Assembly: GCA_947500525.1 (NCBI GenBank)
Contig: CANMSH010000005.1
Span: forward strand, 62,001 to 126,000
Source of the DNA: an uncultured Flavobacteriaceae bacterium
Lineage (GTDB): Bacteria; Bacteroidota; Bacteroidia; Flavobacteriales; Flavobacteriaceae
Direction: 5' to 3'
DNA: 64,000 nt
Shown here: one piece after another, positions 50,868 to 61,338 of the stretch
How positions within the stretch are numbered: position 1 is the stretch's first letter
Layout of the letters: each line of letters starts with the position of its first letter
Position numbers and translations under genes: made by a program
Notes under the pieces: model-generated
The model's input: the letters and a program-made list of their open reading frames with translations, nothing else
Database searches by the model: none
Told to the model about the DNA's origin: nothing

Positions 50868-52031
50868 TTATACTAATGTTACTAAGGCCTTTTTTAGCGC
50901 ATGTTCTACATCATTCATAATATCTTGAGTGCTTTCTATACCAACAGAAAATCGTAGTAAGTTATCAGAAATACCGACCTCAGCTCTTTGCTCAGCAGTC
51001 AACAAAGCGTGTGATGTAGCAGAGGGTAATAAAATTGTGGATTCTACACCCGCCAAGCTCATTGAAGGTTTTATAAGTTGTAACTCTTTCTGAAACTGTA
51101 CCGCATCATATTCATTAGTAAGTTCAAAAGAGAGCATGCCTCCAAAGCCATGCATTTGTGATTTAGCAATTGCATGCTGTGGGTGACTCGTTAGCCCTGG
51201 ATAATATACTTTAGAAACAGCAGCATGAGCATCTAAAAATTCAGCAATTTCTTGCGCATTCGAATTGTGTTTGTCTACTCGTACTCCCAACGTTTTTATA
51301 CTTCTCTCTAACAAATAACACATAAAATCACTTAAACTCCCTCCTATATTTTTTGCTTTTTGCCAGATTCTTTCAATGTGTTCTTCAGATGCGGCGACAG
51401 CACCGGCACAAATATCACTATGCCCACCGAGATATTTTGTGGCAGAATGAAGAGAAATATCAATCCCCAAATCCAAAGGTCTTTGATTAATAGGAGATGC
51501 AAACGTATTATCAATCATAGAGATCAATCCGTGTTTTTTTGCTACCAACGCCACTTTTTTAATATCCGTAATTGTCAACAACGGATTTGAAGGTGTTTCT
51601 AAATATAGCACCTTCGTATTCGATTTGATTTTATTCTCAAAATCACTTGCTTCTACCCCATCAGTAAATGAATATTCAATACCCATTTTTTCGAATTCTT
51701 CGACAATTAAATTGAAAGTTCCTCCATAAATCTCATTTTGCAAAACTATATGATCACCATGATTTAAGAAAGCAAACAAGGCCGTACTTATTGCTGCCAT
51801 TCCTGAAGCAAACGGCAAGGCCACTTCGGCATGTTCTAAAGCTGCTATTTTTTTACCAACAGCATCTTGATTGGGTGTATTAAAGTATCTTGGATATCTC
51901 TTTACATCTACATCCATATAAGCATACGAACTTGCCATGTATATTGGCGAAACTGCTCCTCCAAATTGCTCATCTTTTATCTCTCCTGTATGGGTACAAA
52001 TGGTATGTACACCCAACTTATTTTTTGCCAT
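50868..52031 (-). CDS. PLP-dependent trans-sulfuration enzyme (cystathionine gamma-synthase/methionine gamma-lyase family)
   Basis: A 387-residue Cys/Met-metabolism enzyme. The PLP lysine is in SLHSATKYLGGHSDICAGAV. SMAAISTAL-type GMAAISTALFAF and LYLETPSNPLL are the cofactor-binding blocks, and RFSVGIE is near the C-terminus. The family includes cystathionine gamma-synthase, beta- and gamma-lyase and methionine gamma-lyase; the exact reaction is not decidable from the sequence. ATG 52031 (MAKNKLGVHT) is preferred over an upstream ATG at 52043. It stands as a single gene. Confidence 0.9.
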   Translation of the reverse strand: MAKNKLGVHTICTHTGEIKDEQFGGAVSPIYMASSYAYMDVDVKRYPRYFNTPNQDAVGKKIAALEHAEVALPFASGMAAISTALFAFLNHGDHIVLQNEIYGGTFNLIVEEFEKMGIEYSFTDGVEASDFENKIKSNTKVLYLETPSNPLLTITDIKKVALVAKKHGLISMIDNTFASPINQRPLDLGIDISLHSATKYLGGHSDICAGAVAASEEHIERIWQKAKNIGGSLSDFMCYLLERSIKTLGVRVDKHNSNAQEIAEFLDAHAAVSKVYYPGLTSHPQHAIAKSQMHGFGGMLSFELTNEYDAVQFQKELQLIKPSMSLAGVESTILLPSATSHALLTAEQRAEVGISDNLLRFSVGIESTQDIMNDVEHALKKALVTLV

Positions 52032-52171
52032 GGTTATTGTCATTTATATAGAGCTCTAAAATACAAAACATTCGACAACAAGTATCTCTATTATCAAAAT
52101 TAAACACAATTGTGAAAAGAAGTAAAATTCTTATGCTCTTGGATGTATAACAAGATTGATTTTAATATCTC

Positions 52172-53802: not shown

Positions 53803-54606
53803 ATGAAAAATATAATTGTGGGACTCATAACACTATATGCGTGTTACAGCTTTTCCCAAACCCAAAAAAAAGCAGAAAGAGTATTCGTAAATAACAAGAA
53901 TATCTATTACGAAGTTTATGGTAAGGGTACACCACTCGTTTTTTTACATGGCTATAGTTTATCATCACAATCATGGCGACCATATGTAAAAGATTTCGCT
54001 GAAAATTATGAAGTTTATCTGATTGACTTAACCGGCCATGGAAAATCTGACGCATTCACTGAAGATTTATCCATTACAAATGTGGCGAAAGATGTGTTTG
54101 CTTTACTAAAACATCTAGAATTAAAAAATATTCAAGCCATAGGTTTTAGCTTCGGAGGTGATGTACTCTATCAGTTAGCATTACAAAAACCAAGGCTTAT
54201 TACATCTATGATTACAATTGGAGCAGTAGGCACTTGGACCGTAGAAGATTTTCCTGAGTATCAAAAGGCATTCTCTTTTGAAAATCGAGCAAATTTTCCT
54301 TGGTTAGTTCATCATAAAAATGATGATCAAATAAAAGCAATCATGACACAATTTAAAAATTACAAGGTCAAAATTAGTACTGAAGAATTAAAAATTATAG
54401 CTCCAGAAGTACTCATTATGATTGGAGATGATGATGAAGGAATGGATTTTAATGAAATAGCACGAGTTAAAAAAAATCTGCCTAAATCTGATCTTTGGGT
54501 ATTACCAAATGTAGCACATGGAGCGCATGAAGGAAAAACCAAACACGAATTTGTCAAAAAAGCCAACACTTTTCTCAAAAAAGTAAAAATTAACAAGGCC
54601 AATTGA
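53803..54606 (+). CDS. Exported alpha/beta hydrolase
   Basis: A 267-residue hydrolase with a signal peptide (MKNIIVGLITLYACYSFSQ). LVFLHGYSLSSQSWRPYVKD is the oxyanion region, LIDLTGHGKSD the HG region, and IGFSFGGDVLYQLAL the nucleophile elbow with Ser. LMIGDDDEGMD and NVAHGAHEGK provide the acid and His. It is a periplasmic esterase or related enzyme with unknown substrate. The VOC gene follows after 55 bases. Confidence 0.88.
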   Translation: MKNIIVGLITLYACYSFSQTQKKAERVFVNNKNIYYEVYGKGTPLVFLHGYSLSSQSWRPYVKDFAENYEVYLIDLTGHGKSDAFTEDLSITNVAKDVFALLKHLELKNIQAIGFSFGGDVLYQLALQKPRLITSMITIGAVGTWTVEDFPEYQKAFSFENRANFPWLVHHKNDDQIKAIMTQFKNYKVKISTEELKIIAPEVLIMIGDDDEGMDFNEIARVKKNLPKSDLWVLPNVAHGAHEGKTKHEFVKKANTFLKKVKINKAN

Positions 54607-55301: not shown

Positions 55302-57236
55302 ATGAACAATTACAGAAAAAAAGAAGCGTTGCAAAAACGTAACGAAGCCAATTTGTTGGCTAATGAAAGACCCACAAAACGTCATAAAAGTAATGGCGAT
55401 GAACAAAAATTTAGAAATGTAGATGGTGACGGGAAACCTAACTATATGGTTAGTTTTACCAAAGGTTTACCTCATAACAAAATAACTGGTTTAATTAAAG
55501 ACCCTCAACATTTTCAGTATTTCGTTAGAGGAATTGATAGTGGAGACCCGAGAGACTTTCGCGACACACCGCTCGGTCCTGACGAACACTGCGGTCCTAC
55601 AAACCCCACGGCACCTAAAAGTTGGGAGTCACTTATTGCACAAAAAGGTAAATTAGATGCTGATCCCTCAGATCCAGATAATAAAGTTGGATTAAGAGCT
55701 TGGGAAAGTCAAAGTGCGGGCTTAATTTTTGAGTTAGAAGGACCTGATGCTCAAGCTGTATCGATGCCTCCTCACCCTATACTGGGGAGTGCAGAGTTAA
55801 CCGCTGAAATGGCCGAAGTATACGCGCAAGCATTGCTAAGAGATGTTCCGTTTAATGCCCTCAGTGCTGGTATTCTAGATCAACAATACCTAGAAGATAA
55901 GTGTCAGCCTATCCCCCAAAACGGTGTCGTTAATCAACCAATATTAGGGAAATTAAAAGCGAAAAAAAATGATGTTAAAGAGTATCTAAAAATTACAGAA
56001 ACATTAAAGGATCTAGATTGGTTCTCATCAAAAGATTTAAAATTAACACCACAAGAAGAAATTAGAAGATGTAATAGGCAATGCCCTACTCCATCAAATG
56101 CATTTCGAGGCATTACCAAAGGTGATGATATAGGTCCTTATATATCACAGTTTCTTTTAATTGGTAATGCTGGAATTGGTAATGAGCAAAGAACGAGTGA
56201 CGATGGGCAAATTTCTTTCGGAGCTATTTCTATCGATCAAAAAGTGCGTATCGCCAAGGAAAGAAACTATATGACGAAATGGGAAGAATGGTTAGACGTT
56301 CAAAATGGAGCAAAGGTATCCAATTTAGAAAGTTATACGGAAGCACCGGCAGATTTGAGACGCTTTATTTATACACCGAGAGATTTGGCTACCTATGTGC
56401 ATTATGACGCCTTGTATGAAGCCTATTTAAATGCTTGCCTTATACTACTGGGCAATGGTGTTGGTTTTGATCCTGGCATTCCGTTTCAAGAAGACGATAA
56501 ACGAGACCATCAACAAGGTTTTGCACATTTTGGCGGGCCTCATATTTTAACACTTGTAACCGAAGTTGCTACTCGCGCGTTAAAAGCAGTTCGCTTTCAA
56601 AAGTATAATGTACATCGAAGATGTAGACCCGAAGTATTGGCAGCAAGGATTACCAAGGTAGACGAATTAAAAAACAATGCTAACGAACTCGTACAAATGA
56701 CAAACGATATTGGTACGGGGACAGGTTCTCTATTAGATTTAATTGACAAGGCAAACGGAGACTTATTTGAAGCAATTCCAGGAACTGCCGATAAAAATTA
56801 CCTGTTACCAATGGCCTTCACAGAAGGATCACCGATGCATCCAGCCTACGGTGCCGGTCATGCAACGGTAGCTGGGGCTTGCGTAACGGTGTTAAAGGCA
56901 TTCTTTGATTGCAACAGCTTATTTAAACCTAATGGCACTGACGCCAATCAAGCATATGTTTCTGTTAATAATGGCAAAAAATTAGAACTTGTTCCTGTTT
57001 TAGATCAACTCGGAAACAATATTGATTTAACTGTTGAAGGAGAATTGAACAAGTTGGCTTCTAACATTTCTATTGGAAGAAACTGGGCTGGAGTGCATTA
57101 TTTTACCGATTATTATGAGTCGATATTAATGGGGGAACAAATAGCAATTGGTATTTTAGAAGAACAAAAATTAATGTTTAAAGATAATTTTTCGATGACA
57201 ATTCCATTGTTTGGAGGAGAAACGATACGAATCTAA
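55302..57236 (+). CDS. Vanadium-dependent haloperoxidase (bromoperoxidase-type)
   Basis: A 644-residue enzyme with no signal peptide. The vanadate and catalytic residues align in spacing with algal bromoperoxidase: K434-x7-R442 (in KYNVHRRCRP), H513, the A518-G519-H520 triad position (HPAYGAGHATV), and R593-x5-H599 (RNWAGVHYFTDYYE). The usual PSGH Ser is Ala518. In the family these residues bind vanadate and oxidise halide with hydrogen peroxide. It may produce halogenated metabolites or remove peroxide. It is preceded by a 292-base region with inverted repeats. Substrate halide cannot be assigned. Confidence 0.88.
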   Translation: MNNYRKKEALQKRNEANLLANERPTKRHKSNGDEQKFRNVDGDGKPNYMVSFTKGLPHNKITGLIKDPQHFQYFVRGIDSGDPRDFRDTPLGPDEHCGPTNPTAPKSWESLIAQKGKLDADPSDPDNKVGLRAWESQSAGLIFELEGPDAQAVSMPPHPILGSAELTAEMAEVYAQALLRDVPFNALSAGILDQQYLEDKCQPIPQNGVVNQPILGKLKAKKNDVKEYLKITETLKDLDWFSSKDLKLTPQEEIRRCNRQCPTPSNAFRGITKGDDIGPYISQFLLIGNAGIGNEQRTSDDGQISFGAISIDQKVRIAKERNYMTKWEEWLDVQNGAKVSNLESYTEAPADLRRFIYTPRDLATYVHYDALYEAYLNACLILLGNGVGFDPGIPFQEDDKRDHQQGFAHFGGPHILTLVTEVATRALKAVRFQKYNVHRRCRPEVLAARITKVDELKNNANELVQMTNDIGTGTGSLLDLIDKANGDLFEAIPGTADKNYLLPMAFTEGSPMHPAYGAGHATVAGACVTVLKAFFDCNSLFKPNGTDANQAYVSVNNGKKLELVPVLDQLGNNIDLTVEGELNKLASNISIGRNWAGVHYFTDYYESILMGEQIAIGILEEQKLMFKDNFSMTIPLFGGETIRI

Positions 57237-58173: not shown

Positions 58174-61100
58174 TTACTTTTTGTAATACTTCTTATTCTT
58201 AATGAATGCCAATATAGAGAGTACAATTCCAACGCCTAACCAGTTCCATATTTGATATGGTATTGGTGCCGATTCACCAGCAGCGTACGAATGCAGACCT
58301 GAAAGTAAATGGTTTACTCCTAGATATCCCATCAAAATTCCTGCAAAAGCGAAATACGCAAGAACGTTAAACGTTAATTTTCCGCGTAAGCCTGGAATCA
58401 AACGGGTATGTAAAATAAAAGCATACAAAATAATATTAATAAGTGCCCACGTTTCTTTAGGATCCCATCCCCAATAGCGTCCCCAACTCTCATTAGCCCA
58501 CATAGCACCTAAAAAATTACCAATGGTAAGCATTACAAGCCCTACAGTCATAGACATCTCACTAATAATGGTAATTTCTTTAATGTGTAAATCAATTTTC
58601 TTCTTGTTCTTAGAATTTGTCAGAACAAAAAGTATAAGCGCTATCAAACCAAGAATCATACTGAGAGTTAAAGGGCCATAACTTGCCACAATAATAGATA
58701 CGTGTATCATCACCCAATATGAATCGAGTACCGGTACTAAATTAGCAATTGATGGATCCATCCAATTCATATGAGCCCACATCAAAATCATAGATACTAC
58801 AAATGATGAAGCCGCAATAGTTAAACTAGATTTTCTTCCAAAGGCCAATCCAAAGAACATCGTCGCCCAAGCTACATAAATCATTGATTCATAGCCGTTA
58901 CTCCAAGGAACATGACCAGAAATATACCAGCGAATTCCTAGTCCTATTGTATGATAAATAAATAATAAAAAGATGATAAATCCACTTATTTTGATGAGTT
59001 TATTTACCAACTGCGAAGTATTAAATATCTGCACTACAACTAAGATGAGCAAGATCAAACTCGCCAACATATAGTACATAAAAAGGCTCTTAAAAATATC
59101 GTATTTGTTATAAAATATTTCAAGCTCAACCTTACGTTTTGTTGGTAATACCTCACTTCCGTACCTCTCCTGAAACTTATGTATACCTTCTAATAATTGG
59201 TTCGACTGAGTATAATCACCAGTTTTGACTGCTTCTCCTAAAGTTTGAGTATAATACGGAATTACGTTACGTACAAAGGAAGAATCTGCTTTGTTAAAGC
59301 CAGCAGTTTGCAACTCCGCTCGAGACACCCATTTATTATTTTCGTCTCCATTTATGGGGAAAAATCTAAAAATATCACCTGAAATTCCACTGTATAATAA
59401 ACTAACGCGATTTGAAATATTGACTATACTTTCTTCAAATTTGGTTTTGATCACTTTTTTAGACGCTTTTTCTACTTCTTCTCCTAGTTTATATTCTCCT
59501 TTCTCATTAAAAAAATCAGCTAAACTGGCATATTTTTGTTCTTTCGGAATACCTATCAATTCTCTTACTTTGGTATTGGCACTTTTCATGTAAATAAATG
59601 GAACCGAAAACCAAATTCTCGGATTGGTAACAATAGAAACTGCCACTTGATTAGCATCCAAATCTTTATAAGTGTCTTTTTTACTTACTTTTCGAAGTAA
59701 CTCTGAGGCAAAAGTATGCACAGGCTTCATACGCCCGCCTTCATCTTGAATTACTAACTGGCTAAAACGTTCGGCATGTTCTGCAGAAACTTTAGTGGCA
59801 TTTAAAATAGAATCAACTTTTTGATAACTCAGGTGAGGATCTTGCGAAAAAGCAGCCGTACTTAAAAGTAAAACGATTAATGTTAATGCTTCCTTTTTCT
59901 TCTTAATTTTCTCTAGCATTTTACCTAAATCTGCGAATCGTGTTCCTTTTAAAAATAGTACAAATGTCATAGCAAAAAACAATAACACATATCCGAAATA
60001 AGTGACTGTGGTTCCTAGTACGTCATAATTAACCGAAAGTTGTGTTTCTTCTACTTCCCCAGATAAATCGTAACTCGCTTGAAAGAATCTATATCCTTTA
60101 TGATCTAATATGTTATTCATGAAAATGCGAAAATCAAAAGAATCATCGGTATCAATAACAGTCACCTCACTAGCAAATGATTTTGGTTGATTAGAACCTG
60201 GATAACGTTCTAACTGAAAGTCTCGCAGCTTTAGTGAGAAAGGTAGTTCTAGTTGTTTGGATCCGTAGCTCAACCTAAAGTTTAAGCCATCCATAGAAAA
60301 CGTCTTTGGGGGGTTAATTACGTAGCGTGTACCTAACAAGGCTATTTTTTTACTTTCGTTTTCTGTTGTCACTTCTACTTCGATGATGTCTTCTGGATGT
60401 TCTTCTTTATCTCCAGACGTCATTACTAATTGTCCTTTGGTTGCAGGCTTAGGAACAACAAACTGCATGTCATGCATTGTGTACAATGATCGTAGATTAA
60501 AGGGTTGCAAAGAATCTTTTTTTACCCTTCCTGTATCTTGTGTAGCCATCACCATGAAATCGGCATCTAATGGCATTTTTATAAATAGTTGATCATTCTG
60601 TGTTAAGAAGTTAATCGCTCCTGGAGTGTCATTATCAAAACTAACAAGTTGATTGTGAATATTCTCTATTTCACCTTTTTTTATATAATGATCATGTCGA
60701 GATCCTCCTCCAGATTCTACAAAATGTAAATACTCAGTACCGTTCTCATCTTCTTGAAACTCTTCATAAGCATTGGGTATATAGCTTGAGTAATTAATTG
60801 AAACAGGTTTTCCTCTAAAGTCTGTTTCAATTGAAAAATCATTACCTCCGCGAAGTAGATTAAAAAATTGTGCGGCATATGCCGTAAAACCACCTTTATC
60901 AGTTACTTCAGGAGCAAACAAATACTTCCTTTCTAATATTTTTTGATCTTTATCATCATCAATTGTAATGTTTACATAGGCCGTTTCAGAAAGCATTAAA
61001 TTAGATACTTGGCCTTCTTCTATAGGCATATAACCTTCATAACTTATATACCGCGTAATTCCGGCGCCTAGAAGTATAAAAATAAACGCTAAATGAAATA

Positions 61101-61338
61101 TAAGAACCGATAACTTTTCTTTTCTGAATAAGCGATATCGAAAAATATTACCGACAAAATTGACAATAAAAACAATGTGTAGTACTTCAAACCACCAGGC
61201 ATTATATACCAGCGCTTTTGAAGCTTGCGTACCATAATCATTCTCAATAAATGTAGCAATTCCCATAGCGGCAGCATAGACAATAAAAAGAACACCTGTA
61301 AGTCGTGTAGAAAAGAGAAAATTAGCTAGTTTTTTCAT
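58174..61338 (-). CDS. Fused ResB-CcsA cytochrome c biogenesis protein
   Basis: A 1054-residue System II cytochrome c synthase. The N-terminal ResB part has transmembrane helices (VLFIVYAAAMGIATFIENDY, LIFHLAFIFILLGAGITRYI) and a large periplasmic region. The C-terminal CcsA part carries the haem-handling WWD segment GRYWGWDPKETWALIN and conserved His residues (for example in HVPWSNGYES and HTRL). A hydrophobic stretch ending AAFSQDPHLSYQ separates the two. Both haem transport and ligation are in one polypeptide, typical of Bacteroidota. It delivers haem to apocytochromes such as the SorB-like one in this window. Confidence 0.93.
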   Translation of the reverse strand: MKKLANFLFSTRLTGVLFIVYAAAMGIATFIENDYGTQASKALVYNAWWFEVLHIVFIVNFVGNIFRYRLFRKEKLSVLIFHLAFIFILLGAGITRYISYEGYMPIEEGQVSNLMLSETAYVNITIDDDKDQKILERKYLFAPEVTDKGGFTAYAAQFFNLLRGGNDFSIETDFRGKPVSINYSSYIPNAYEEFQEDENGTEYLHFVESGGGSRHDHYIKKGEIENIHNQLVSFDNDTPGAINFLTQNDQLFIKMPLDADFMVMATQDTGRVKKDSLQPFNLRSLYTMHDMQFVVPKPATKGQLVMTSGDKEEHPEDIIEVEVTTENESKKIALLGTRYVINPPKTFSMDGLNFRLSYGSKQLELPFSLKLRDFQLERYPGSNQPKSFASEVTVIDTDDSFDFRIFMNNILDHKGYRFFQASYDLSGEVEETQLSVNYDVLGTTVTYFGYVLLFFAMTFVLFLKGTRFADLGKMLEKIKKKKEALTLIVLLLSTAAFSQDPHLSYQKVDSILNATKVSAEHAERFSQLVIQDEGGRMKPVHTFASELLRKVSKKDTYKDLDANQVAVSIVTNPRIWFSVPFIYMKSANTKVRELIGIPKEQKYASLADFFNEKGEYKLGEEVEKASKKVIKTKFEESIVNISNRVSLLYSGISGDIFRFFPINGDENNKWVSRAELQTAGFNKADSSFVRNVIPYYTQTLGEAVKTGDYTQSNQLLEGIHKFQERYGSEVLPTKRKVELEIFYNKYDIFKSLFMYYMLASLILLILVVVQIFNTSQLVNKLIKISGFIIFLLFIYHTIGLGIRWYISGHVPWSNGYESMIYVAWATMFFGLAFGRKSSLTIAASSFVVSMILMWAHMNWMDPSIANLVPVLDSYWVMIHVSIIVASYGPLTLSMILGLIALILFVLTNSKNKKKIDLHIKEITIISEMSMTVGLVMLTIGNFLGAMWANESWGRYWGWDPKETWALINIILYAFILHTRLIPGLRGKLTFNVLAYFAFAGILMGYLGVNHLLSGLHSYAAGESAPIPYQIWNWLGVGIVLSILAFIKNKKYYKK

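Follow-up and report, generated by a model that had tools for sequence, protein, structure and literature searches.

The locus considered here lies in a window of 64,000 nucleotides (contig CANMSH010000005.1 of an uncultured Flavobacteriaceae bacterium) and raises the question of whether a vanadium haloperoxidase that carries alanine in a place held by serine in the algal and fungal enzymes has departed from the function of its relatives. The gene at 55302-57236 on the plus strand encodes 644 amino acids when read from an ATG. Its open frame comprises 654 codons and opens just 10 codons before this ATG, so that no longer N-terminus has been overlooked. The features on which the argument draws are the following:

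55302-57236, plus strand: vanadium-dependent bromoperoxidase resembling AmVHPO, 644 amino acids (phmmer E 3e-176 to 5LPC; best Foldseek matches 8q20, 8q21 and 5lpc; active-site residues).
56475-56540, plus strand: residues 392-413, a low-confidence loop (pLDDT <50) overlapping residues 396-410, the equivalent of AmVHPO loop 390-404.
56592-56594, plus strand: Arg431, aligned with AmVHPO Arg425, the halide-specificity position at i-3 from the active-site lysine (role from the available text of PMC11871015).
56601-56603, plus strand: Lys434, aligned with AmVHPO Lys428, the active-site lysine.
56625-56627, plus strand: Arg442, aligned with AmVHPO position 436.
56838-56840, plus strand: His513, aligned with AmVHPO His513.
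56853-56861, plus strand: Ala518-Gly519-His520, AGH versus SGH of the algal and fungal enzymes, aligned with identical residues bearing identical numbers in AmVHPO.
57078-57080, plus strand: Arg593, aligned with AmVHPO position 588.
57096-57098, plus strand: His599, aligned with AmVHPO position 594, the putative axial vanadate ligand as judged from the family.

The best match among solved structures is AmVHPO of Acaryochloris marina (5LPC, 590.9 bits, residues 3-644 of the window protein), with 52.1% identity over 601 aligned columns. It is followed by the Corallina bromoperoxidases with phmmer E values between 5.8e-143 (1UP8) and 8.8e-141 and then by that of Ascophyllum (E 6.7e-45, 156.9 bits). 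A structure model, calculated for the monomer from an alignment of 19 sequences including the query, reached a moderate mean pLDDT of 71.3 and is closest to AmVHPO in Foldseek (8q20: E 1.2e-39, TM 0.79, rmsd about 5 A, exceeding 5 A for the best matches); the chains matched at E <= 0.001, 12 in number, are all titled vanadium haloperoxidase or bromoperoxidase. The lowest-confidence block of the model is the loop formed by residues 392-413. According to the available text of PMC11871015, loop 390-404 is disordered in wild-type AmVHPO and lines the tunnel leading to the active site of the neighbouring subunit. The residues named in the original prediction (K434, R442, H513, G519, H520, R593 and H599) as well as Ala518 are all found at these positions and line up with their counterparts in the crystal structures of the A. 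marina and Corallina pilulifera enzymes, a similarity well outside what chance would give (phmmer E 3e-176 to 5LPC). Each residue of the AmVHPO/Corallina-type vanadate site has its counterpart in the window protein: a Lys, a Gly, two Arg, the acid-base His and the axial His. With full-length homology to solved members and the active-site residues in place, the assignment to the bromoperoxidase-type vanadium haloperoxidases stands.

Pfam-A and NCBIfam models gave no match to the protein at E 0.001, and of the textbook vanadate contacts one is missing. This could be taken to indicate that the protein is no longer a haloperoxidase and has, for instance, degenerated or become phosphatase-like. We regard this as the least probable of the readings considered, with hardly any weight left to it, because the remaining catalytic residues are present, the match to active bromoperoxidases extends over the full length and the gene is under strong purifying selection. 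The bromoperoxidase of a sister species (L002) is 94.1% identical, and a dN/dS of 0.024, obtained with dS near saturation, is the lowest among nine genes compared, the bromoperoxidase itself included (0.035-0.114 for the other eight). Degeneration was rejected on the basis of this value.

The alanine is real, as confirmed both in the reading frame and in the alignments, where serine stands in the corresponding column of C. pilulifera, Corallina officinalis and Ascophyllum nodosum. In the fungal chloroperoxidase from Curvularia the equivalent residue, Ser402, belongs to a group of residues that form hydrogen bonds to the oxygens of vanadate, as stated in the available text of PMC9144378. The original prediction proposed that, with Ala518, this one enzyme has diverged functionally and differs in halide specificity or turnover, and the serine retained in algae together with the fungal hydrogen bond speaks for that proposal. 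Against it stands AmVHPO, which brominates and has the same alanine: the aligned stretches read HPSYGAGHATVA in AmVHPO and HPAYGAGHATVA in the window protein, and the AmVHPO residue is likewise number 518 after conversion of chain numbers to the published numbering, a conversion that fits K428, R425, Q399, F401 and E139. Furthermore, the published specificity switch sits elsewhere, at R425 (PMC11871015, available text).

Bacterial homologues were collected from 21 related loci, from genome samples and from plasmids (two of six matching plasmid records were taken). After removal of duplicates the set contained 50 rows in addition to the query and two references, one row being a fragment that lacks column 518. 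The 49 rows counted comprise both copies of the tandem loci L007 and L015 as well as several partial proteins; 38 of them have Ala and 11 have Ser at column 518. Where arginine occupies the column of AmVHPO Arg425 (the Arg431 group), 29 rows carry Ala and seven Ser, the latter all stemming from genomes of one family sample that contains Spirosoma. The mostly more distant rows with tryptophan in this column (Trp431) divide into eight with Ala and four with Ser, and one further Ala row is without the column. As the rows are not independent and sampling was uneven, these numbers demonstrate that Ala is usual but do not give its exact frequency.

A quick tree was built from 47 rows, leaving out L015, L015_2, L028_2, L029, L058 and L059. 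In it, the query falls into a 28-row all-Ala group together with AmVHPO with a support of 91, and the 27 rows of this group without AmVHPO are supported with 98; both values are SH-aLRT, the only support calculated, on a tree that kept the trait's own column, in which long branches meet and the root serves for drawing only. At least four changes between Ala and Ser are required on this tree, two of which are forced by strongly supported branches. The sequences show alanine as the usual residue at position 518 in this branch, most members of which lack the vanadate contact made by serine elsewhere. Since the residue is both usual in the branch and present in the one characterised bacterial enzyme compared, the comparison with bacterial homologues contradicts the proposal of the original prediction, and an effect peculiar to this enzyme was rejected; it appears very improbable to us, if marginally less so than loss of haloperoxidase function. 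No published exchange between Ser and Ala at the 518-equivalent position, S358A included, was found in the main texts searched, and the available text of the AmVHPO paper (PMC11871015) does not discuss Ala518. By far the most probable reading is that the window protein is an ordinary member of a cyanobacterial/Bacteroidota vanadium bromoperoxidase branch in which Ala518 is usual and no mark of altered function.

How such an ordinary member would work can be outlined by analogy to AmVHPO, which also provides the model for a putative dodecamer. By homology, vanadate would be bound axially to His599 and held by Lys434, Arg442, Gly519 and Arg593, with His520 acting as the acid-base residue. Hydrogen peroxide would then give rise to peroxo-vanadate, by which bromide (and iodide) would be oxidised to hypohalous acid. 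The enzyme most likely consumes H2O2 or halogenates small molecules. According to the available text of PMC11871015, conversion of monochlorodimedone by wild-type AmVHPO reaches 53% for bromination and 8% for chlorination, and the KM for H2O2 is 60 uM; with AmVHPO only about half identical, these kinetics need not carry over to the window protein. In the same text, chlorination is raised by the R425S exchange in AmVHPO and by replacement of R397 with Phe or Trp in the Corallina enzyme, and specificity is placed in the outer sphere around the active centre. The specificity and tunnel residues E139, Q399, F401 and R425 of AmVHPO are all kept in the alignment as E135, Q405, F407 and R431 of the window protein, the latter being the arginine at i-3 from the active-site lysine that is a feature of the AmVHPO/Corallina-type bromoperoxidases. 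Retention of these four residues leads to the prediction of a bromo/iodoperoxidase that would oxidise bromide and iodide and show weak chlorination.

The original prediction had also noted the lack of a signal peptide and considered a cytosolic haloperoxidase unusual. The first part holds, as no hydrophobic stretch is visible in the hydropathy profile of the N-terminus, while the second does not. Among 35 rows of the Arg431 group, including the query but neither the partial sequences L028 and L015_2 nor the two references, 33 are without an N-terminal stretch over the threshold of 1.6. The two rows over threshold, L065 when read from an extra upstream Met and L054 with a stretch resembling a normal helix, were judged unconvincing as signal peptides. 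One row of this group, L014, matches a loose twin-arginine pattern, albeit within the part homologous to mature protein. On the basis of hydropathy, an absent signal is therefore usual in the close branch and no peculiarity of this gene. Among 11 Trp431 rows examined, three exceeded the hydropathy threshold and four have a twin-arginine-like N-terminus. The latter (L077, L078, L080 and L081) are divergent homologues from a class sample around a betaproteobacterial MAG and point to possible export of some members of the wider family. The window protein itself is probably active in the cytosol or once the cell has lysed; non-classical export would also be compatible with the missing signal peptide.

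Presence of the gene in genomes was scored at E 1e-20, the window's own genome being counted in the genus, family and phylum samples. The gene is patchy within the genus, where it was found in three of 17 genomes (two of 11 well-completed ones), and occurs in 5/397 sampled genomes of the family and in 1/395 of the phylum sample, the single match being the own genome. Samples around other carriers gave matches in 11/298, 7/222 and 10/274 genomes, already known carriers counted. Relatives in viral contigs were not detected in one scan. A scan for sigma-70 sites, which does not cover the Bacteroidota promoter type, returned six sites versus an expectation of 11.1; on the strand of the gene, the 300 bases preceding it contain no site.

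A conserved operon was rejected: in a comparison of 21 loci with flanks of up to 6 kb, several of them shorter, no locus apart from that of the sister species L002 carries genes resembling those next to the bromoperoxidase in the window. Two further related genomes are informative in this respect. Measured by a cytochrome-biogenesis protein (86% each), genome G786 stands at the same distance as the sister species. It retains the adjoining hydrolase and regulator genes, but the corresponding slot (L105:7968-8850) contains neither the bromoperoxidase nor the glyoxalase-like gene and instead has an ORF of 175 amino acids matching none of the window genes tested. In genome G777 (L107:2053-4934), a divergent bromoperoxidase of 58-63% identity, placed elsewhere on the tree (L031), lies between counterparts of window genes 50868-52043 and 58174-61338 without the window's intervening genes; this evidence for replacement comes from one contig alone, 5.4 kb long, in a genome that is 68% complete. 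Taken together, the two arrangements suggest gain, loss or replacement of the bromoperoxidase at one region.

The gene at 53803-54606, upstream of the bromoperoxidase, encodes an alpha/beta hydrolase, a fold that is also used by cofactor-free haloperoxidases. As G786 keeps the hydrolase without the bromoperoxidase, a functional tie of the two is unlikely. Several other gene arrangements were encountered among the homologues. Two uncultured Dokdonia genomes have two bromoperoxidase genes in tandem (L007:5986-10244 and L015:1-3161), and on Pseudanabaena plasmid NC_019690.1, typed as conjugative, the gene is split by an IS630 element (L028:3001-5827). The homologue on Polymorphobacter plasmid NZ_CP080242.1 (L029:2968-4764) reads GAGL for GAGH, with leucine as the His520 equivalent, and is possibly inactive or altered. 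Active Streptomyces enzymes with Ser or Thr for a motif 2 His, perhaps the equivalent of His520, are described in the available text of PMC13198595.

The prevalence of alanine has a practical consequence. The conserved family motif is quoted as PxYxSGHA in the available texts of PMC10427571 and PMC9144378, and the window protein does not conform to it owing to Ala518 in the place of Ser before Gly-His. As AmVHPO and 38 of the 49 homologous rows also lack this serine, the motif is too narrow for the branch and excludes most of its bacterial bromoperoxidases, one of them characterised. Genome mining should therefore allow Ala at the Ser position or use profile searches. One may go further and speculate about a soluble cytosolic AGH-type branch in Bacteroidota and cyanobacteria, in which a stable and nearly branch-wide alanine would suit intracellular halide and peroxide chemistry and the gene would undergo recurrent exchange, including exchange at a single chromosomal region among members of one genus; we consider this extended picture improbable, though less remote than the two alternatives weighed above.

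As an enzyme, the window protein is ordinary, and the alanine that had seemed odd is what the bacterial relatives examined usually carry at this position. Placed beside the known vanadium haloperoxidases, it shares a flavobacterial origin with the iodoperoxidase of Zobellia galactanivorans (4CIT/4USZ), which was absent from its phmmer matches up to E 1 and was weakly matched by one divergent homologue (E 1.2e-4). The bromoperoxidase of A. nodosum (1QI9) belongs to the same family but is a weaker match and differs in having Ser in SGH and Trp at the i-3 position. The Corallina bromoperoxidases (1UP8, 1QHB and 8VGX) agree with the window protein in fold, catalytic set and Arg at i-3, 1UP8 being 48.1% identical, but have Ser in SGH where the window protein has Ala. 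AmVHPO, also termed AmVBPO (5LPC, 8Q20-8Q22), is of cyanobacterial rather than flavobacterial origin, and indels separate the two proteins. Its crystallised construct starts with MNTRRQQ at residue 1, which may not be the native start, and is also without a hydrophobic N-terminus. It resembles the window protein over the full length and shares its active-site residues, among them Ala518, Gln399, Phe401, Glu139 and the arginine at position 425.
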